Source: a virus. From it: a DNA stretch of 64,000 bases. The stretch lies in IMG/VR virus record IMGVR_UViG_3300037258_000358, positions 1 to 64,000 of that record. One strand, given 5' to 3'. The translations under genes were made by a program, and so were the position numbers. Positions within the stretch are counted from its first letter, which is position 1; each line of letters starts with the position of its first letter. Shown in pieces: positions 1-55,411 of the stretch. The notes under the pieces are model-generated. The model saw only the letters and a program-made list of their open reading frames with translations. It was not told where the DNA came from and did not search any database.

Positions 1-2781
1 GGCGCCCTGCTGGCGCTCGCCGCGCCGGCCGCGGCCACCACGAATTACCAGCTGCCGATCATCAAGGTGAACGGGCAGTACAGCCAGCTTCCCCCGGGCT
101 ACGGGATCAAGCTGCAAAGCACTGGCCTTGTCCAATGCATCCACCTGGATACGTCGGGCGACGTCGTCCCCATGGGCGCCGACTGCGCCACGGCCGGGTC
201 CGTGGTCGACAGCTTCGACACCCGCATCGGCGTCGTCACCTTCGAGTCGGCGGATCTTGACGAGGTCTGCGCCACGGACGGGGATGTCCTCCAGCGCAGC
301 GGGGGCGTCTGGGCCTGCGCGGCGCCGCCGAGTTCCGGCGTCACGAGTTTCGATACGCGCACCGGGGACGTCACCTTCATCTCCTCGGATCTCGACGGAC
401 TCTGCTCGACAGACGGCGACGTGCTCAAGCGTGTCAGCGGGACGTGGACCTGCGGCTCCGGCGGAGGCGTCACCTCGTTCAACAGCCGGACCGGAGCGGT
501 CACCTTCACCAATGCCGATTTGACTGCGGTTCTGACCTCGGCCGATGTCGTGGCCGCGCTGGGCTACACGCCGGTCAACCCGTCGAGCCTCGGGACCTTC
601 GCTGGCCAGAACTATGCAACTCCGCCGACCATCGGCGGGACGACACCGGGGCAAGGCGACTTCTCAGGCCTGAACGACACGGCCCTGACGATCTCGACTT
701 CGGTCTGCACAGATGGCTCAAAAACCCTGATCTCGTGTGGGAGCGGTCCAGGAACCGGGACTGTGACCAGCGTAGGCCTCTCTCTCCCAGCGACGTTGAC
801 CTGCACCGGCTCGCCAATCACCACGTCAGGGACATTCTCCTGTTCCTGGGCCAGCGAGGCGCAAAACTCATTCTTCGCCGGGCCGACGTCAGGCTCAGGC
901 ATCCCGGCCTTCCGCGCCTTCGTTCTGGGCGATCTGCCGGCGATTGCTGACGGGTCGATCCTGGCCAACATTTCTGGCGGATCGGCCATTCCAGCGGCAA
1001 GCGCCCTATCGCTGATCCTCGATCATGACCTATGCGCCACCAACGGCCAGGTGGCCTATCGCACCGGAGGGGCCTGGGGGTGCGCGGCGCCAGCGACGCC
1101 GACGATCAGCAATCCTCTCTTCATCCCGAACACTGAGTCCATCGGCATCCTGACGGGCGACGTTGCCCCAACCTCGACCGCGCTTTGGGCCGGATCGCTC
1201 GGCCTCTCGATAGATGCGGCGGATGCCTATGTCTATCAGGGCGCAGCGACACCCACTGTCGTCCAGTCGGCGCAGACCAGCGGCGCGGCCGTGGCGGGGC
1301 CGGGGTCGATCGTCGTCACCCTGGGTGCGTCGCCGACGCCCGGAAACTGGATGATAGCCGCCGTCGAGTCGAGCAGTGTAATCAGTGCCAACACTGGATG
1401 GACGATCTTCAGTGGCCCGACGACTTGTGGCTTCGCCGAGACTAGGTTCGCTTATCGGCGCGTGACGGCCGCCGACACCGTAGTTCAAAACCCATTCTTC
1501 GTCGGCGCGACCGTCTACATGGGCGCGCCGATCATCACCGAAATTGCCGGGCTACCGCTCAATTGGGCGCAGGTCGTCCAGAGCGTTCCAGCGCAGGTCT
1601 GCAACGCCAGCGCCACGAGCGCGAACATCACAGCGACGACGGGGATCGCGAACAGCCTGGCCCTCGCCTTCGGTGGTTATCAGGTCAACGGCAGTTCCGG
1701 TGTGGGAACGCAGTCGATCACAGGCGTTACCGGCGGTCAGATTTCATCCAGCACCTTTAATATAGGGGCCGGCAGGAGTTTCGGTCTGATCGAGGCCAAC
1801 GCCCTCTATGCGAGTCCGTCATCTTCCGTAACAGCGACGCCTGCGTCGACGATCAGCAACAATGGCCTGACCGCCCTGCTGCTGATCCTCAACCCCGCCC
1901 CGGCCGACGCCGAGAGTTGGGAGCCGTTGAGCTACCTGCGGACGATCTACGCCAACGCCGTCGCCAAGACGACGCGAGCGTTCAGTCTCAATTTCAATTC
2001 CAACTTCACCGTCGCGGACGACGGCAATGGCAATGAGACGGTCGGGCTCGATCTTAGTTCTCCACCGGCTATCGGCGGGACGACGCCAGCCGCCGGAGCG
2101 TTCACCACTCTTTCCGCAACGGGTGGTCTGACGACCAACATCACCGGCGGCGGTAATCAATGTCTGAGCGCCAACAATAGTGGCATCGTTTCAGGGACAG
2201 GGTCAGCCTGTGGAAGCGGCGGTGGTGGCGGGACGGGACTTTTCAACCAGACAATTTCGACGACGCCCACAATAAGCAGCACCGACTTAACCGCGTCCTC
2301 GACATATACGCTGACGAATGTTGCGACAGGCGTAAAGCTAAACGGAAGCGGCTATGCTTATGAGTCGACACCTAGCGCGCCATGGTCCTACATAGTTCTG
2401 ATCGCCAACGAAGCTTTCGGTAACGCCGAATACCAAGGGCCACTACTAATGGCCGGCGACGGGTCAAAGTATCTCTATCTTACCGTGCAGGGCCGAGCTG
2501 TGGACGGGGCGGCGACGGCCGTTGTGCAAAACTGTCTAGTGTCAGCAGGAAATTGCGGTTATGCCAGCACCGACTATGTTACAATTAACTGGATACCAAA
2601 TTCTTTCTTTTATTGGCTCAAGGTTTACTACGACGGGACAAACATTCACTTCTATTTGAGTGCAGAAGGATCGGTGTGGACATCGATTTACAGCGGAAAT
2701 GCCTACGCGACCGCATGGAATCACATCGGCGTCAGCACAACCTTGGGGGTTGTCCTTTCATGGACGCAGGGGACGAGCTGA
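1..2781 (+). CDS. Tail fibre protein, 5'-partial, with signal-peptide-like N-terminus
   Basis: The frame is open to the left window edge, so the GTG at 67 is probably not the true start and 926 residues are visible. The first visible residues read GALLALAAPAAATTNYQ, like the end of a Sec signal peptide. Residues about 70-200 hold three copies of a repeat with core SF(D/N)(T/S)RxGxVTF followed by a Cys-containing DGDVL..W.C segment; the last copy runs into ALGYTPVN, a motif common in phage tail fibres. Gly/Thr/Ser-rich segments (PPxIGGTTP, seen at least twice) follow, then a C-terminal part that may be a beta-sandwich or lectin-like domain (inference). The likely role is the distal host-recognition fibre. 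The signal-like N-terminus is odd for a virion protein. Confidence 0.75.
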   Translation, partial: GALLALAAPAAATTNYQLPIIKVNGQYSQLPPGYGIKLQSTGLVQCIHLDTSGDVVPMGADCATAGSVVDSFDTRIGVVTFESADLDEVCATDGDVLQRSGGVWACAAPPSSGVTSFDTRTGDVTFISSDLDGLCSTDGDVLKRVSGTWTCGSGGGVTSFNSRTGAVTFTNADLTAVLTSADVVAALGYTPVNPSSLGTFAGQNYATPPTIGGTTPGQGDFSGLNDTALTISTSVCTDGSKTLISCGSGPGTGTVTSVGLSLPATLTCTGSPITTSGTFSCSWASEAQNSFFAGPTSGSGIPAFRAFVLGDLPAIADGSILANISGGSAIPAASALSLILDHDLCATNGQVAYRTGGAWGCAAPATPTISNPLFIPNTESIGILTGDVAPTSTALWAGSLGLSIDAADAYVYQGAATPTVVQSAQTSGAAVAGPGSIVVTLGASPTPGNWMIAAVESSSVISANTGWTIFSGPTTCGFAETRFAYRRVTAADTVVQNPFFVGATVYMGAPIITEIAGLPLNWAQVVQSVPAQVCNASATSANITATTGIANSLALAFGGYQVNGSSGVGTQSITGVTGGQISSSTFNIGAGRSFGLIEANALYASPSSSVTATPASTISNNGLTALLLILNPAPADAESWEPLSYLRTIYANAVAKTTRAFSLNFNSNFTVADDGNGNETVGLDLSSPPAIGGTTPAAGAFTTLSATGGLTTNITGGGNQCLSANNSGIVSGTGSACGSGGGGGTGLFNQTISTTPTISSTDLTASSTYTLTNVATGVKLNGSGYAYESTPSAPWSYIVLIANEAFGNAEYQGPLLMAGDGSKYLYLTVQGRAVDGAATAVVQNCLVSAGNCGYASTDYVTINWIPNSFFYWLKVYYDGTNIHFYLSAEGSVWTSIYSGNAYATAWNHIGVSTTLGVVLSWTQGTS

Positions 2782-3038
2782 TCATCCTCACTCCCGCGCC
2801 CCGTCCTCGGCGAAGCCCACCACGGCGGCGACGAGAACCCCCATTCGACACCCCATCCCGCTAATGCTATCTGAGCCTTGCAAGGGGGGGGGCGCCGCCG
2901 GTCGAAGCAGTAGGCTGTCGAAAGATTATTTCGCCGCCGCGCCTCACGTCGCCTAGCGCCCGCGCCTGATTCGGGTATCTTTTCCCACGCTGGCGGGCGA
3001 CCGGCGGCTCTCGACAGATCCAGGGTACGGGGCGCGCG
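2782..3038. other. Intergenic region with G9 tract
   Basis: This 257-bp gap lies between the fibre gene and the sulfotransferase-like gene. It holds a perfect 10-bp palindrome CCTTGCAAGG followed at once by a run of nine G (2884-2892). A TATCTT-like -10 lies near 2973 but has no good -35. No supported gene was seen on either strand. Confidence 0.4.
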
Positions 3039-3746
3039 TTGTCGCATCCATTCATCATTTGGGCGGAGCCCCGGAGCGTGGGCACCGCGCTTTCCAATGC
3101 GCTCAAGGCCGTATCCGAGCATCCGGCGATGTATGACGACCCGTTCATGTACGGCGGCCGCCCTGGCCTGCTGAATTGGGTCTATGAGGCCTGGAGGCGC
3201 GGGAACGGCGAGCCGCTATCCGTCGAGATGATGAAGCGCATCTGCTTCAAGGAAGTCCCGGCCAACTTCGATCCCTGCTTTAACGAGGCGATCGCCCGGG
3301 CGGCCGAACCCAACGGCTATCGCCACATCCACCTGGTACGCTGCAACGTGTTCGCCCAGCTGGCCAGCCGCGGTGTTGCCGAGCAACTGGACGCCTGGTC
3401 GCGGGATGAGACGGCGACCAAAACCGCCAGTCTCGTTCAACTCGAGCCGCTCGACGTGGACGACCTGATCCGCAAGTATTATCGGGGCGGCGAGTGTTGG
3501 GCTGCGCTGGAGCGGGACCTGCCCGGCTTTCTCACCGTCCGCAGCGAGGACGTGGCCAGCCGCGATTGCGCTCGCAGGCGCGTCGAGATCGTGCGCATCC
3601 TGGACTTCCTGGACATTCCGGCTGATCGGCTGGCCACCGTCGACGACATCCTGTCTGAGGACGGGGACAACACTGAAGCCCTGTGGTCGAAGGTGCCGAA
3701 CATCGAAGCCTTGAGCCGGGCGCTGGCGCAAAGGGGCATCGGATGA
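3039..3746 (+). CDS. Sulfotransferase-like P-loop protein
   Basis: 235 aa from a TTG start. The N-terminus PFIIWAEPRSVGTALSNAL resembles the 5'-phosphosulfate-binding loop of sulfotransferases (PRSxxT), and the later VRSEDV..........I..FLDIP segment resembles the 3'-phosphate-binding region. The family transfers sulfate from PAPS to sugars or proteins. The stop overlaps the ATG of the following glycosyltransferase (ATGA), which suggests that both act on a common glycan, either on the host surface or on the virion. The substrate cannot be read from sequence. A ribosome-binding site before the TTG is weak, so the start is uncertain. Confidence 0.6.
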   Translation: MSHPFIIWAEPRSVGTALSNALKAVSEHPAMYDDPFMYGGRPGLLNWVYEAWRRGNGEPLSVEMMKRICFKEVPANFDPCFNEAIARAAEPNGYRHIHLVRCNVFAQLASRGVAEQLDAWSRDETATKTASLVQLEPLDVDDLIRKYYRGGECWAALERDLPGFLTVRSEDVASRDCARRRVEIVRILDFLDIPADRLATVDDILSEDGDNTEALWSKVPNIEALSRALAQRGIG

Positions 3747-4879
3747 CCGATCTGGACCCGCTGGCCCTGGACGATCTCGAACTCGCCCCGCGCCCACATG
3801 CCATTTTCCCGTCGATGGAATCCGCGCACGTCGTCATCGTGATCCGGGCCGACGATCCCTATTCGTCATGCAGCGCCCGGGGGCTGAACGTCACCTCCAT
3901 GATGACGGCCCGGGTTCTTCGCCAGAAGGGAGCTGATTGCGATATCTGGCATTGCCCGGATGCCCGGGAAGTGATGCTGAAGCTGCGGCGCGAGGAACCG
4001 CGCCAGCGCCGGCCGATCACGCACGTCGTCATCAATACGCCCGGCTTCGTCCCCCCGGACGCCTTCGGGGAACTGGCCACCACATGGCCCAACGTCCAGT
4101 TCGTCATGCTCAACCACACGGGCCTGGCGTATCTCTCCATCGACCCGGACGGCTGGCAGAACATCCGCGCCCTGCTCGACATGCAGGCCATGCTCGACAA
4201 CGTCCATGTGGCCGGGAACAACCCGCGCTTCTGCGCCTCGATCAAGGCCGGGTTCGGCAAGCGGACGCTGCTTCTGCCCAACCTGTTCGACCTCGAGCAA
4301 TTCAAGCCGCTGCGCCCCAAGCGCCGGTCCTATGCTCCATTGCGGATCGGGTCCTTCGCCGAGGGGCGGCCATGGAAGAACCAGCTGGCCGCGGCTCAGG
4401 GCGCGCTTTCCATCGCCCGCGCGCTGGGCGTCCCGCTGGAACTCTACGTCAACGATGAGCATCCCCACGACAATTGGGACCGCGTCGGACTCATCCGCGC
4501 AAGGCGCGAACTATTCCGCGGCTTGCCCTGGGCGACGCTCGTCCCCGTGACCTGGCAACCCTGGCACGCCTTCCTCCACACCGTCGAGGCGATGGACCTG
4601 ATGCTCTATCCCTCGTTCGACGAGTCGTTCGGTATGGTCCCGGCCGATGGCATCGCCATGGGCGTCCCCTGCGTCACGGCGCCGTCGCTGGAATGGACGC
4701 CGCGGTCCTGGCAGGCGCTCGAGCCGTTCGACCCGGCCTCTATCGCCAGAACGGGTCTCAGGCTCCTTCGCCATCGGCGCTGCGCCCTGTGGTCCGGGCG
4801 CCGGGCCCTGAAGCGCTATGTCCATGCCGGCGCGCGCACGTGGCTGCGCTTCTTGGGTTCGGGACGCCGACTCAGCTAA
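3743..4879 (+). CDS. GT-B family glycosyltransferase
   Basis: 378 aa, starting at the ATG that overlaps the previous stop (ATGA); an in-frame GTG at 3683 would only add residues out of family. The segment LYPSFDESFGMVPADGIAMG, followed by VPCVT, is the E-x7-E-like nucleotide-sugar signature of GT-B (GT4-type) enzymes. A central KN(Q)LAAAQGAL segment is typical of the start of the C-terminal Rossmann domain. It probably transfers a sugar from a nucleotide donor in the cytoplasm. Coupling to the sulfotransferase-like gene suggests surface or virion glycan decoration. Confidence 0.75.
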   Translation: MTDLDPLALDDLELAPRPHAIFPSMESAHVVIVIRADDPYSSCSARGLNVTSMMTARVLRQKGADCDIWHCPDAREVMLKLRREEPRQRRPITHVVINTPGFVPPDAFGELATTWPNVQFVMLNHTGLAYLSIDPDGWQNIRALLDMQAMLDNVHVAGNNPRFCASIKAGFGKRTLLLPNLFDLEQFKPLRPKRRSYAPLRIGSFAEGRPWKNQLAAAQGALSIARALGVPLELYVNDEHPHDNWDRVGLIRARRELFRGLPWATLVPVTWQPWHAFLHTVEAMDLMLYPSFDESFGMVPADGIAMGVPCVTAPSLEWTPRSWQALEPFDPASIARTGLRLLRHRRCALWSGRRALKRYVHAGARTWLRFLGSGRRLS

Positions 4880-4901
4880 TCCAGTCAGACAGGAGACGCC
4901 C

Positions 4902-5690
4902 ATGCCCAATCTCGCCCTTGGCCGCAAACCCCGGACCTTCAGACCCTCGATCCCGCATATGTCCGCGCTGATCTCCGGTCGAAAGCTGGCGCCGATCCCG
5001 ACGTCGGCCGACTGGCTGACTGCGCTGCCGAGCGCCCTGGGGGTCATGGGTAACGATTCTTTGGGGGACTGCACGTGCGCCGGCTTGGGTCATGCAATCC
5101 AGGTCTGGAGCGGCAATGCCGAAGGGGCCGTCATCACCATCCCAGACAGTGACGTGCTCGAGATCTATGAGGACGCCTGCGGCTATGTGCCGGGCGATCC
5201 GTCCACGGACCAGGGCGGCGTCGAGCAGGATGTCCTGGCCTGGGCGCACAAGACCGGCATCCCCACGCCCGGAGGACCGGACAAGATCGCGGCCTTCGTC
5301 GAGATCGATGTCCGCAACCTCCATGACATCTGCCGGGGCATCAACGAGTTCGGCCTCGTCTATATCGGCTTCAACGTCCCGGCCTATCTCATGGCCAACG
5401 GCCCTCCGCAGGTCTGGGATGTGAACCCGGTCGGCGATCAGACCATCGTCGGGGGACATTGCGTCGTCCTGCCGTCGTATGTGTTCACCCTGGCGCCCAA
5501 CGGCTACATCTCCGAGGCGACCTTCGGCCTGATCTCCTGGGGCGAGAAATTCGCCATGACGGCGGCGTTCTTCCGCGCCTTCGTCGACGAGGCCTACGCC
5601 GTCGCCGATGCGCACTGGATCGAAGCGACCGGCGTCGATCCGTTGGGCATGACCCTGGCGCAGCTCGAAGCGCAGATGAGGGCGCTGTGA
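4902..5690 (+). CDS. Papain-like (C1-fold) cysteine peptidase-like protein
   Basis: 262 aa. The ATG at 4902 has a good AGGAGA site at 4891. The motif GDCTCAG (Cys57/Cys59) fits the catalytic Cys region, VGGHCVVLPSY (His186) fits the catalytic His, and LISWGEKFAMT near residue 210 fits the NSWG/WGE segment of papain-like enzymes. There is no propeptide or signal peptide. A tail-associated or lysis-related role is possible, but it could also be an inactive structural homologue because the Asn of NSWG is replaced. Confidence 0.55.
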   Translation: MPNLALGRKPRTFRPSIPHMSALISGRKLAPIPTSADWLTALPSALGVMGNDSLGDCTCAGLGHAIQVWSGNAEGAVITIPDSDVLEIYEDACGYVPGDPSTDQGGVEQDVLAWAHKTGIPTPGGPDKIAAFVEIDVRNLHDICRGINEFGLVYIGFNVPAYLMANGPPQVWDVNPVGDQTIVGGHCVVLPSYVFTLAPNGYISEATFGLISWGEKFAMTAAFFRAFVDEAYAVADAHWIEATGVDPLGMTLAQLEAQMRAL

Positions 5691-51068: not shown

Positions 51069-51626
51069 ATGGCTCTGGGTTTCTTGAAGGAAGCGGGACC
51101 GGCAGTGGGCGACGTTCACGTCAACACGGCCGACTTCCTCGCGCCCGACAAGGGCAAGCGCACACCAGAGGACATCGAGAACGAGCGCAAGGCGAATCTG
51201 CGCACGGGACCCGAAGGCGCCGTTTCGAAGGAAGGCTTCATCGCCAAGGTCGACACCTCGCATGGCCTGGTGTTTGGGTTCGGGATCGTCTGCCGCAAGG
51301 GCGGCCAGCCGTACTTCGACCTGCAGAAGGACCATATCCCCGAGGATTCCATGATCGAGGCCGCGGCCGATTTCATGAAGAACAGCCGCCAGGCGCATGA
51401 GATGCACGCCGGGTCGAAGCAGGGCGATGTCGTATTCGCGATGCCGATCACCGACGACATCCGCAAGTTCATCGCCGACAGCGACGAGACCGGCCTCCTG
51501 ATCGGAATGGCCCCGTCCGCCGAAGTCTTGGCCAAGTTCAAGAGCGGCGAGTACGCCGGCTTTTCGATCGGCGGCGAGCGCATCGACGATGAGGACGGCT
51601 CTGCAGGAGTCCGACGTGCGGCATGA
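51069..51626 (+). CDS. XkdF-like prohead protease
   Basis: 185 aa. GFIAKVDTSHGLVFGFGIVC, YFDLQKDHIPEDSMIEAAAD, MHAGSKQGDVVFAMPITDDI and GYAGFSIGGERI-type end (EYAGFSIGGERID) match phage XkdF, a predicted serine protease that processes scaffold. Directly precedes the scaffold-like gene. Confidence 0.8.
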   Translation: MALGFLKEAGPAVGDVHVNTADFLAPDKGKRTPEDIENERKANLRTGPEGAVSKEGFIAKVDTSHGLVFGFGIVCRKGGQPYFDLQKDHIPEDSMIEAAADFMKNSRQAHEMHAGSKQGDVVFAMPITDDIRKFIADSDETGLLIGMAPSAEVLAKFKSGEYAGFSIGGERIDDEDGSAGVRRAA

Positions 51627-53803
51627 GCGACAAGCCCACGGTCATGCGCCGCCTAAAGATCGCGGAGATTTCGGCCGTGGACCGGCCGGCGCAGGCTCAC
51701 GCCAGGGTCGCCCTGATGAAAAGGCACGATCCGATGATCGATGAATTCATCAAGCGCGAGTTCAGCGACGACAAGCGCAAGGAACTCGCCGAGTCGGGAG
51801 CGGCATTGCCGGACGGTTGCCTTTCCGGCGACACGCTTGTTGAAACGCTCGATGGCCAGCGGCCGATCTCTGGTCTTCTTGGTCGGCAGCGCCTGCTCAC
51901 CGAGCAAGGTTGGAAATCAGCCGAGGTCCAGTATTTCGGAGAGCAGCGACTCGCTGAGGTGCGTCTTTCTCGCGGGTATGTGCGGCGCTCCATTCTTGCG
52001 ACGCTTGGCCACCGTTGGCACACTCGGCGCGGGATCGTGCCCACGGCCGGCCTCCGACCTGGAGACCTGCTTCCTCAAGTATCCCGCGACCGCTTCGCTG
52101 TAGCTGTCGAACCATCCGAGATGGCTGTTGCAGGGGCCACAGAGCAGTCCGCGAACCTCGCCAGTCAGATGGTCATGGTCGACATGGAGCGCGGTCCACG
52201 TGCGCCCTGTCCGCGTGTTTGCACGGTTCAGCGTGGGCGTCCGGCAGCAAATGGCGCATCGGCCGCCCTGCGCGATAAACATCGCCTCGAATTCGGCGTT
52301 TCCGATGCCGTATTTTCGGCGCAAGGCACCTTCTCGGCGACGAAGCCAGCGAAGATCGCCGAAGTCGACCTTGGCGGAAGATTCCTCGGCATGAGTTCGC
52401 TTGCAGGTCTTACATTCGGTGCGCCTCCGGCCGCTTTCCCGAATGTAGAACTCGCTCGGTGGCTGCCTGACTCCGCAGAGTCGGCAGTTCCGCCATGCCG
52501 GATCGTCCGGAAGCGTTCCAGCCAGGATGCGTCTCGCATCTGTGGAACCATGTCGCCACAGGCGTTGGTAATGGGGGCTGCAGAGTCCGACTGCCTTGAC
52601 GATTCCTACGCAGCCCTCGATTTTGCAGGTGTTGACGGTGGATGGTCTGTCGAAGAGGTCCGGATGACCGGCCTCATCGAGTCCGTCTACTGTGGCGTCG
52701 TCCCTGATTTGCATAGGTTCGCTCTAGCCGATGGCCTGATCACCGGCAACAGTTTCCCGATCGAAAACGAAGAGGATCTGCACAACGCGATCCGCGCCGT
52801 CGGCCGGGCCAAGGACGAAGCCAAGGCCAAGGCGCACATCATCGCGCGAGCCAAATCGATGGGCGCCACGGGCGCTCTTCCCGAAGACTGGAAGGCCAGC
52901 AAAGCCGTCCACCTCACTCCCCTGAAAGGAACGACCATGACGCCCTCAGAGCTTCGCAAGTCCCTGGGTCTGGCCGACAGCGCCTCCGATACCGAGGTCA
53001 CCAACGCCCTCATCGTCAAGGCCAACAAGGCCGACGACGACGCCGAGAAGGCCAAGGCCAAAGAGGAAGAGGCCGAAAAGCGCGCGAAGAAGGCCGAGGG
53101 CCTCGCCAAGATGAGCGACAAGCACCGCGGATTCATGAATCACGCGGACGCCAAGATGCCCACGGGCGGCAAGGACGCCTTCGCCGAGATGGAGCCGTCA
53201 GAGCGTGACGCGCACATGAAGGCCAACCCGATCGAGGACGACGGCGACGCGGACGACGTATCGAAGGCCATCAAGGCCGGGACTGCCTTCGTCGCTGCCG
53301 GCGGAATTCTCATCCGCAAGAGCAAGGTCGGGGCGGACGTGTTCTCCGTGCTGAAGGCGACGACTGAGCAGAACGCAACCCTGGCCGAACAGGTCAAGAA
53401 GTCCGACGAGGCAGCCGCGCTCGCCAAGTTTGAAAAACAGGCGGACGCCGAGTTCGCGCACCTGCCGGGCACAAGCGCCGAGCGCGCCGAACTGCTCAAG
53501 GCGATCGACGCCATGCCTGAGGCCGTCAAGAAAGCGACGCTCGCCAACATGGCGATCCAGGAAAAGCTCGCGAAGTCGGCCTTCACCATGATCGGCCGGG
53601 ACGCCTCGGACCTCGGTCTCGAAAAGAAGGACGAGGACAACGCCGAGGCTGAACTCGACAAGAAGGCCAGGGAGATCGTCGGGAAGTCCGCTGGGACGTC
53701 CTACGCCAAGGCCTATGACCAGGTCTGCAAGGACAACCCGGATCTCTACGCCAAGTACGTGAGCCAAAAGCGCCAGCGCACGAACGGCGCCGACGCGGAC
53801 TGA
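51623..53803 (+). CDS. Intein-containing scaffold-like capsid protein
   Basis: 726-codon precursor. N-extein (1-65) holds EISAVDRPAQAHARVALMKR, an XkdF/prohead-protease-type C-terminal motif. The C-extein continues SFPIENEEDLHNAIRAVGRA...HIIARAKSMG, a conserved phage domain (DUF6582-like, from memory) interrupted exactly at G65/S. Then a charged coiled-coil region and an Ala/Lys-rich scaffold-like C-terminus. After splicing the product is ~415 aa and probably assists capsid assembly. Start ATGA-overlaps the protease gene. Confidence 0.82.
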   Translation: MSDKPTVMRRLKIAEISAVDRPAQAHARVALMKRHDPMIDEFIKREFSDDKRKELAESGAALPDGCLSGDTLVETLDGQRPISGLLGRQRLLTEQGWKSAEVQYFGEQRLAEVRLSRGYVRRSILATLGHRWHTRRGIVPTAGLRPGDLLPQVSRDRFAVAVEPSEMAVAGATEQSANLASQMVMVDMERGPRAPCPRVCTVQRGRPAANGASAALRDKHRLEFGVSDAVFSAQGTFSATKPAKIAEVDLGGRFLGMSSLAGLTFGAPPAAFPNVELARWLPDSAESAVPPCRIVRKRSSQDASRICGTMSPQALVMGAAESDCLDDSYAALDFAGVDGGWSVEEVRMTGLIESVYCGVVPDLHRFALADGLITGNSFPIENEEDLHNAIRAVGRAKDEAKAKAHIIARAKSMGATGALPEDWKASKAVHLTPLKGTTMTPSELRKSLGLADSASDTEVTNALIVKANKADDDAEKAKAKEEEAEKRAKKAEGLAKMSDKHRGFMNHADAKMPTGGKDAFAEMEPSERDAHMKANPIEDDGDADDVSKAIKAGTAFVAAGGILIRKSKVGADVFSVLKATTEQNATLAEQVKKSDEAAALAKFEKQADAEFAHLPGTSAERAELLKAIDAMPEAVKKATLANMAIQEKLAKSAFTMIGRDASDLGLEKKDEDNAEAELDKKAREIVGKSAGTSYAKAYDQVCKDNPDLYAKYVSQKRQRTNGADAD
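51818..52750 (+). other. Intein (311 residues) with reversed endonuclease
   Basis: Begins with Cys66 (CLSGDTLVET), has block B ATLGHRW and N4-like VPTAGLRPGDLLP, ends VYCGVVPDLHRFALADGLIT then GN before Ser. Penultimate residue is Gly, not His, as in a known phage subgroup. Between the splicing halves (52077-52642) the + frame is open but has no end-to-end protein-like motif; instead the opposite strand there encodes an HNH endonuclease. Confidence 0.9.
51917..52714 (-). CDS. HNH (endonuclease VII-type) homing endonuclease, antisense inside the intein
   Basis: 265 aa. Residues 30-55 CKIEGCVGIVKAVGLCSPHY (zinc-binding domain common in phage endo VII proteins), 77-104 CRLCGV...CKTC zinc ribbon, 150-200 GGRCAIC...HVDHDHLTGEVRGLLCGPCN (the HNH/endonuclease VII core). 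Core coordinates about 52070-52627 fit exactly between the splicing halves. Codon boundaries are aligned with the + frame. Start ATG 52714; ribosome site weak. Confidence 0.85.
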   Translation of the reverse strand: MQIRDDATVDGLDEAGHPDLFDRPSTVNTCKIEGCVGIVKAVGLCSPHYQRLWRHGSTDARRILAGTLPDDPAWRNCRLCGVRQPPSEFYIRESGRRRTECKTCKRTHAEESSAKVDFGDLRWLRRREGALRRKYGIGNAEFEAMFIAQGGRCAICCRTPTLNRANTRTGRTWTALHVDHDHLTGEVRGLLCGPCNSHLGWFDSYSEAVAGYLRKQVSRSEAGRGHDPAPSVPTVAKRRKNGAPHIPARKTHLSESLLSEILDLG

Positions 53804-54403: not shown

Positions 54404-55411
54404 ATGCCCGGCAATCCGCAACTAGGCGACGTCCACGTAAACGTGCCGCTGACCAATATGTCGGTGGCCTACATCCAGGACGAATCGAATTTCGTCGCCG
54501 ATCGGGTGTTCCCGAATCTCCCGGTGACCAAGCAGTCCGATCGGTACTTCCAGTACAGCCGGGCTGACTTCAACCGCGACGAGATGGAAGAGCGCGCGCC
54601 GGGCGCCGAGTCGGCCGGCAACGGCTACGACCTGGACAACACGCCGACGTACTTCGCGACGGTCCGGGCCTTCCACAAGGACATTCCCGATCAGATCCGC
54701 GCGAACAGCGACGACGTGCTGGCGCCGGACCGGGACGCGACGATCTTCGTCACCCAGAAGGCGCTCATCAAGCGTGAGGTCACCTTCGCCAACAACTACT
54801 TCAACAGCGGCGTCTGGAACTATGGCGCGACGGGTGTTGACGCCTCTCCGGGATCTGGCGAGTTCCTCCAGTGGGACAACGTCGATTCGACGCCCATCGA
54901 GGACATCCGCGCGGCCCGGCGCGTCGTGCAGGAAGCCACCGGCTTCAAGCCGAACATCCTGGTCCTCGGCAAGATCGTGTTCGACGTCCTCGTCGACCAC
55001 CCCGAGTTCATCGACCGCATCAAGTACAACTTCGCCCAGGGCGTCGCGGCGGTCGCGAACGAAGTGATCATGGCCCAGCTATGGGGCCTCGAGCAGGTGC
55101 TCGTCATGGAAGCGGTCGCCAACTTCGCCCCTCGCGGCGCGGTTGAAGACTCGCAGTTCATCGGCGGCCCCAACGCGCTCCTGGCCTACCGGACCAAGAC
55201 GCCGGGGATGATGATGCCGACTGCGGGCTACACCTTCAGCTGGAACGGCTGGATGGGCGCAACCGGCATGGGCCACCGCATTAAGAGCTTCCGGCTCGAG
55301 CGGAACGAGTCCGACCGCATCGAAGTCCAGATGGCCTATGATCAGAAGATCATCGGCGCCGACCTGGGCTATTTCTTCGACACGGCCGTCAACACCGCGC
55401 TGTCGGTCTGA
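54404..55411 (+). CDS. Major capsid protein
   Basis: 335 aa with GGAAGGAG upstream. VNVPLTNMSVAYIQDESNFV, DRVFPNLPVTKQSDRYFQYS, DIRAARRVVQEATGFKPNIL and the TKTPGMMMPTAGYTFSWNGW region match a phage major capsid family (HK97 fold). Central in the head operon. Confidence 0.85.
   Translation: MPGNPQLGDVHVNVPLTNMSVAYIQDESNFVADRVFPNLPVTKQSDRYFQYSRADFNRDEMEERAPGAESAGNGYDLDNTPTYFATVRAFHKDIPDQIRANSDDVLAPDRDATIFVTQKALIKREVTFANNYFNSGVWNYGATGVDASPGSGEFLQWDNVDSTPIEDIRAARRVVQEATGFKPNILVLGKIVFDVLVDHPEFIDRIKYNFAQGVAAVANEVIMAQLWGLEQVLVMEAVANFAPRGAVEDSQFIGGPNALLAYRTKTPGMMMPTAGYTFSWNGWMGATGMGHRIKSFRLERNESDRIEVQMAYDQKIIGADLGYFFDTAVNTALSV

Follow-up and report, generated by a model that had tools for sequence, protein, structure and literature searches.

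The window, the 64,000-nucleotide stretch of DNA that was analyzed here (positions 1-64,000 of the 67,839-base IMG/VR record IMGVR_UViG_3300037258_000358), contains a phage gene that is probably interrupted by a mobile class 1 intein whose homing endonuclease gene is nested within it on the opposite strand. The anatomy of both frames, the intein-less homologues, a transfer-like tract and an unrelated family of antisense inteins with selection on two strands are shown below, while splicing, antisense expression and site-specific cleavage are inferred.

Results

The host gene and the insertion site

The host gene and the intein form a single + strand open reading frame (ORF) that runs without a stop from 51623 to 53803 and whose product has 726 aa. 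According to Pfam, this gene is flanked by an XkdF-like protease (51069-51626) and a capsid-E-like gene (54404-55411), and from this neighborhood we take it to be a morphogenesis gene. An earlier note on this DNA had called it a late capsid gene, which was roughly right. The features on the + strand are as follows.

51623 to 53803, + strand: host (extein) gene and intein as one continuous 726-codon ORF (ORF list; neighbors by Pfam)
51623 to 51817, + strand: N-extein, with the final residues ...ALPDG (alignment to 16 uninterrupted homologues)
51818 to 52750, + strand: intein of 311 aa, Cys1 to Asn311 (sequence; Hint fold; homologous inteins)
51818 to 52081, + strand: N-terminal splicing half with blocks A and B (CLSGDT..., ATLGHRW), 39-45% identical to canonical phage inteins
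52082 to 52639, + strand: in-frame loop antisense to the nuclease core, predicted to be disordered (pLDDT < 50)
52640 to 52750, + strand: C-terminal splicing half with blocks F and G (ESVYCGVVPDLHRFALADGLITGN), aligned with the C halves of L113-L121
52751 to 53803, + strand: C-extein, with the first residues SFPIENEEDL (alignment to uninterrupted homologues)

The intein breaks the motif DG/SFPIEN (slashes mark intein junctions), at which 16 relatives of the flanking protein in IMG/VR are uninterrupted and read (A)LPDGSFPIEN or a near variant; the insertion is therefore exact and lies inside a highly conserved stretch. The earlier note had proposed looking for homologues with inteins at the same site. 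Apart from these 16 intein-less relatives, a search of viral contigs with a DNA pattern for NSFPIENEE returned a single intein-bearing one, on a second contig (L001). One genome match to the pattern was rejected as a chance match in a NorB-like gene.

The splicing halves

The intein reads CLSGDTLVETLDG...ILATLGHRW...ESVYCGVVPDLHRFALADGLITGN, then Ser. Its Cys1 codon (51818-51820) is in frame with the N-extein and fulfills the class 1 criterion for position 1, and its Asn311 codon (52748-52750) is followed by Ser+1 at 52751-52753 (...LITGN/S), fulfilling the C-terminal criterion. In block B (ATLGHRW, TxxH) both the T and the H were invariant in an alignment of five inteins, and the block F motif VYC..V..H.F could be aligned with the C halves of L113-L121. 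The N half shares homology with phage inteins that bear sense LAGLIDADG endonucleases (L113-L115, P318), and a profile of homologous phage N halves matched DnaE intein structures with E-values down to 1e-8. AlphaFold, run with an alignment of the halves, gave a pLDDT of ~90 for residues 1-70 and ~83-93 for residues 281-310, and a pLDDT < 50 across most of residues 80-272. Inteins made up nearly all of the PDB fold matches to the halves (best E=3e-4), with gp41-1 and Ssp DnaB at the top, and the few others were related Hint domains. Generic intein models were weak, Hint_2 reaching E=0.003 on the joined halves, under the curated cut-off.

No Pfam family matched a sense domain within the + middle region. 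Given this result and the predicted disorder, the sense middle looks like a ~190-residue unstructured loop at the place where inteins usually carry their endonuclease, and the canonical criterion of an endonuclease fused in frame with the splicing domain is failed. We classified the insert as a class 1 intein by its Cys1, TxxH, Asn311, Ser+1, Hint fold and intein-less alleles, its splicing activity being inferred. The earlier note's claim of complete splicing halves (Cys1, ATLGHRW and GN/Ser) in the + frame with a conserved extein, at 51818-52750, held.

An alternative is that the insert is a self-splicing intron and not an intein. Antisense homing endonuclease genes are indeed known in group I introns (PMC9548176), which speaks for it. 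Against it, an Rfam search of 51400-53200 returned zero matches up to E=1, so that the group I ribozyme criterion was failed, the frame is open throughout, and the full set of Hint splicing motifs and the fold are present. We consider the intron all but excluded and retain the intein.

The antisense endonuclease VII gene

An endonuclease VII-type (EndoVII) gene, with its start and stop both inside the intein, is encoded on the - strand.

51917 to 52714, - strand: endonuclease VII-type ORF of 265 aa, wholly within the intein (ORF list; Pfam; alignment)
52712 to 52714, - strand: nuclease ATG, the sole upstream start codon and the reverse complement of the block F His299 codon CAT
52535 to 52633, - strand: N-terminal Cys/His zinc-finger-like module (NTCKIEGC...GLCSPHYQRLWRHG) (sequence; similar modules in phage homologues)
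52400 to 52489, - strand: second CxxC...CxxC module (NCRLCG...ECKTCKR) (alignment)
52073 to 52324, - strand: Endonuclease_7 catalytic domain (VDHDHLTGEVRGLLCGPCN) (PF02945, E=7.9e-18; best PDB fold match Hpy99I, E=1.6e-3)

The Endonuclease_7 domain is complete (residues 131-214, 64.6 bits versus a Pfam cut-off of 23.6), and its DHxH core, Asn and zinc-binding Cys pairs were invariant in the alignment with phage homologues. By its profile match and conserved residues, the window nuclease satisfies the criteria of the Endonuclease VII / His-Me (HNH) family. The claim of an endonuclease VII-type HNH protein on the - strand at 51917-52714 therefore held, as an intact ORF with a Pfam domain. The ORF is weaker than that claim implied, as its first ~27 and last ~49 residues are antisense to the splicing blocks and predicted to be largely disordered.

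The intein and nuclease frames are in codon-on-codon register (register 0). It had also been pointed out that the + frame stays open through the antisense gene; this is true, yet unremarkable in the window, since the probability of an open + frame, given the nuclease protein and the phage codon usage, was 0.27 over the entire ORF and 0.41 when only the core was considered. For the window, we accordingly do not count an open sense frame as evidence of selection, given its P=0.27 when the nuclease is recoded synonymously. Selection on the two frames of the window is unmeasurable, because there are only two near-identical copies with one difference between them; for the check on antisense-frame selection that the earlier note had called for, purifying selection was shown in the analogous terminase family only (see below). 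The same note had reasoned that the nuclease would need an antisense promoter of its own. No promoter-like site for the antisense ORF was evident in the window, nor was there a clear Shine-Dalgarno sequence ahead of its ATG (52714).

EndoVII genes are very common as free-standing phage genes. In the EndoVII tree, the window nuclease grouped with L034 (support 97/79) and apart from a clade of intein-nested EndoVII genes, and its nesting therefore looks independent. No close relatives of the window nuclease or intein were found in IMG/VR beyond the second contig. Of the nearest known EndoVII relatives that were opened in phages and plasmids to look for antisense nesting, two proved to be nested on the sense strand in another frame, and the rest were free-standing or unclear. 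Among the 80 best EndoVII loci there were a few long antisense open frames, none of them with intein motifs.

Out-of-frame nucleases on the same strand were found in four terminase inteins, namely EndoVII genes in Gordonia phage Angelicage (L022, 1305-1841), in a Streptomyces anulatus plasmid (L024, 2213-2749) and in L104 (about 2315-2776), and an HNH gene in L116 (about 2501-3250). The three EndoVII genes form one clade (support 100/95). A helicase-methylase-like ORF of ~1046 codons in L085 also contains an out-of-frame EndoVII gene (around 2501-2707); this ORF has no obvious splicing domains, and the arrangement resembles the ShiLan-type insertion considered in the Discussion.

The second contig and probable mobility of the element

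The second IMG/VR contig carries the same arrangement of intein and antisense nuclease. Outside the element, the two phages differ by ~2.7% (130 substitutions in ~4,830 aligned bases), and around it they share the following tract.

51746 to 52809, no strand: near-identical tract (1 difference in 1064 bp, two phages) that spans the intein and extends ~60-70 bp into either flank

At the outside rate ~29 differences would be expected in this tract (Poisson ~1e-11), and ~11 would be expected even at the lowest local rate (~1e-4), as against the 1 observed. The near-identical tract fits recent homing with co-conversion of the flanks, in which cleavage is inferred, but ordinary recombination is not excluded. 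In a separate observation, the XkdF-like protease of the second contig has ~480 extra in-frame bases (4491-4971; window position 51220) that are absent from the window copy; they contain two H-x-T/S-like motifs (HVTI and HITIS), suggestive of a 2H phosphoesterase-like domain.

The element could also be a relic in which one or both genes are dead, for example an unexpressed nuclease ORF that survives only through the youth of the intein. Consistent with a relic, the antisense ORF has no recognizable ribosome-binding site or promoter, and an antisense frame in codon-on-codon register readily stays open in a high-GC phage. On the other hand, every catalytic and zinc residue is intact, and the near-identical copy implies recent spread. 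We therefore regard the relic as unlikely and prefer a functional, mobile intein.

A terminase intein family with antisense HNH_3 endonucleases

A scan for related inteins yielded L122 (also L134; IMGVR_UViG_3300001605_004696), which has an intein at the Walker A motif of the terminase large subunit (GPFG/C...HHN/SGKSS) and, nested antisense within that intein, an HNH_3 endonuclease (Pfam E=2.5e-6). This terminase apparently contains another intein downstream of 3367, one with a LAGLIDADG-type endonuclease in the canonical sense orientation; sense and antisense architectures would therefore coexist in one gene. Searches with either frame identified nine further records, all of cultured phages: Pectobacterium phages Ymer, Abuela, Sabo, Koroua, Amona, Taid and Pappous, Dickeya phage Setonix and Pseudoalteromonas phage PHS3. 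An IMG/VR scan with the HNH alignment identified 248 relatives, and 80 loci were kept (the loci of the family are L122/L134, L125-L133 and L135-L213). In all 80 kept loci an open frame ran opposite the HNH gene, always in the same codon register, and 78 of them had a C-terminal intein junction such as HHN/SGK(S/T).

Across the three deep lineages of these inteins the nucleases are 39-49% identical, the splicing halves 46-67% and the sense middle 17-26%. Within the middle region, the Pectobacterium phages showed antisense-silent changes at 0.064-0.127 per site and sense-silent changes at 0.009-0.034 per site. This 2- to 10-fold excess of antisense-silent changes indicates that the antisense protein of the terminase family is under purifying selection. 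When the HNH nuclease was recoded synonymously, the intein frame acquired 6.8 stops on average, while the actual frame was free of stops in 46/46 non-redundant members, so the sense frame is kept open as well. A Shine-Dalgarno-like sequence, most commonly resembling GGATA(A/T)GGAGG, lay upstream of the antisense start in 39 of the 42 members in which an antisense start codon could be identified. Divergence of the nuclease was uncoupled from that of the terminase in both directions (58% against 16%; 63% against 87%), a pattern that suits a mobile element.

The terminase inteins and the window element have different nuclease families, host genes, insertion sites and codon registers (1 versus 0), and the architecture has therefore most likely arisen at least twice. 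The annotation of these inteins is incomplete. In the Pectobacterium phages they are labeled merely as hypothetical proteins; in the PHS3 record (L126, KX912252.1, 2541-4519) the opposite-strand HNH gene is annotated, but the terminase is annotated as a truncated 3' part that begins near the C-terminal end of the intein, so that neither the intein nor the 5' portion of that gene is annotated.

The family bears on two further alternatives. The first is an artifact, either an assembly inversion or a chance antisense similarity, and in its favor antisense shadow ORFs are common at such GC content. Against it, the second contig has the same layout with diverged flanks, which makes the assembly inversion raised in the earlier note unlikely; the Pfam match has E=7.9e-18, with conserved catalytic residues and both frames uninterrupted; and the same architecture is fixed in the terminase family. 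An artifact is thus all but excluded. The second is that a free-standing EndoVII gene landed in a mini-intein as a safe harbor and is a hitch-hiker without specific homing, the intein being vertically inherited. The grouping of the window nuclease with L034 and not with the intein-nested clade (97/79) and the abundance of free-standing EndoVII genes in phages support this view. However, the near-identical tract coincides with the intein and its short flanks, as target-site homing predicts, and the unrelated terminase family holds nuclease and intein together in 80/80 kept loci. We find the safe harbor improbable and favor a homing intein with a nested antisense endonuclease gene.

Discussion

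The reading of this insert as an intein with a nested antisense endonuclease gene, put forward in the earlier note, is supported, strongly so as regards the architecture, with splicing, antisense expression and cleavage activity inferred. In the mechanism that we propose, the sense mRNA would be translated into a 726-aa precursor, in which the Hint halves would fold around a ~190-residue unstructured loop translated from the complement of the nuclease gene; the intein would then excise itself and join the exteins at DG-SFPI. A separate antisense transcript would give a free EndoVII-type nuclease; in co-infecting phages this nuclease would cut the joining site where no intein is present, and the element would spread when the break is repaired from the copy that has the intein.

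The window intein shares homologous halves, insertion into a conserved motif and an endonuclease between blocks B and F with canonical phage inteins (L113, L114, L115 and the Thermobifida phage P318 RNR intein). In those inteins a LAGLIDADG endonuclease is fused in frame in sense, whereas in the window an EndoVII gene lies on the opposite strand. In the inteins of L022, L024, L104 and L116 the nuclease is likewise nested outside the intein frame, and it is EndoVII in 3/4; there, however, it is on the same strand, so that one mRNA can serve both, and the EndoVII members form a clade separate from that of the window. ShiLan has a homing-like HNH gene hidden in another frame of an open phage gene, on the same strand, and splicing domains were undetectable according to its authors (PMC11855218). 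The window does not fulfill the criteria of this type, as its nuclease is antisense and its splicing halves are complete. Taken together, the same-strand inteins, L085 and ShiLan suggest a theme in which endonuclease genes settle wherever the host frame survives, in any frame or strand.

Some group I introns carry antisense His-Cys homing endonuclease genes, for example I-DsqI of Didymium squamulosum, for which antisense expression and cleavage were shown experimentally (PMC9548176). In common with the window, where activity is inferred, the splicing element is on one strand and the homing endonuclease on the other; in contrast, splicing there is at the RNA level in eukaryotic rDNA, so the sense strand needs no open frame. 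Split inteins whose halves are separated by an endonuclease gene have reportedly been described (Dassa, Gorbalenya and Pietrokovski 2009). They resemble the window in that the endonuclease is a separate protein beside the splicing domain, but their host gene is in two parts, while the window has one ORF (51623-53803) with the nuclease overlapping it antisense and fails the split criterion.

The earlier note knew of no intein with an inverted endonuclease. This needs correction, since the layout is fixed in a large, unrelated family of terminase inteins, although we found none published. No intein with an antisense endonuclease turned up in the open-access literature that was searched, and a 2025 preprint on non-canonical actinophage inteins was outside its coverage; the architecture thus appears to be new, with priority uncertain. 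A bolder reading, which we also hold to be likely, is that antisense-endonuclease inteins form a widespread mobile-element class of their own with at least two independent origins (EndoVII in a morphogenesis gene in register 0, and HNH_3 in terminase P-loops in register 1) and with opposite-strand functions under simultaneous selection. With the functions on opposite strands, an antisense transcript would give the endonuclease as a free protein, whose production would not depend on when, or in what amount, the late host protein is made.

In the textbook mobile intein one polypeptide both splices and cuts, whereas here the two functions lie on opposite strands and each must stay intact. These inteins are among the clearest natural antisense overlapping genes with measurable selection on two strands, as measured in the terminase family. 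The antisense layout also explains misannotation, such as a truncated terminase beside an opposite-strand HNH gene in PHS3. Because the terminase form is present in nine records of cultured phages, bench experiments on it are already feasible. The arrangement raises the questions of how an endonuclease gene that lies opposite a late phage gene comes to be expressed and whether the timing of its expression helps homing. Endonucleases can, it appears, invade inteins in any orientation provided that the host frame survives, which supports the view that the splicing and homing parts had separate origins.
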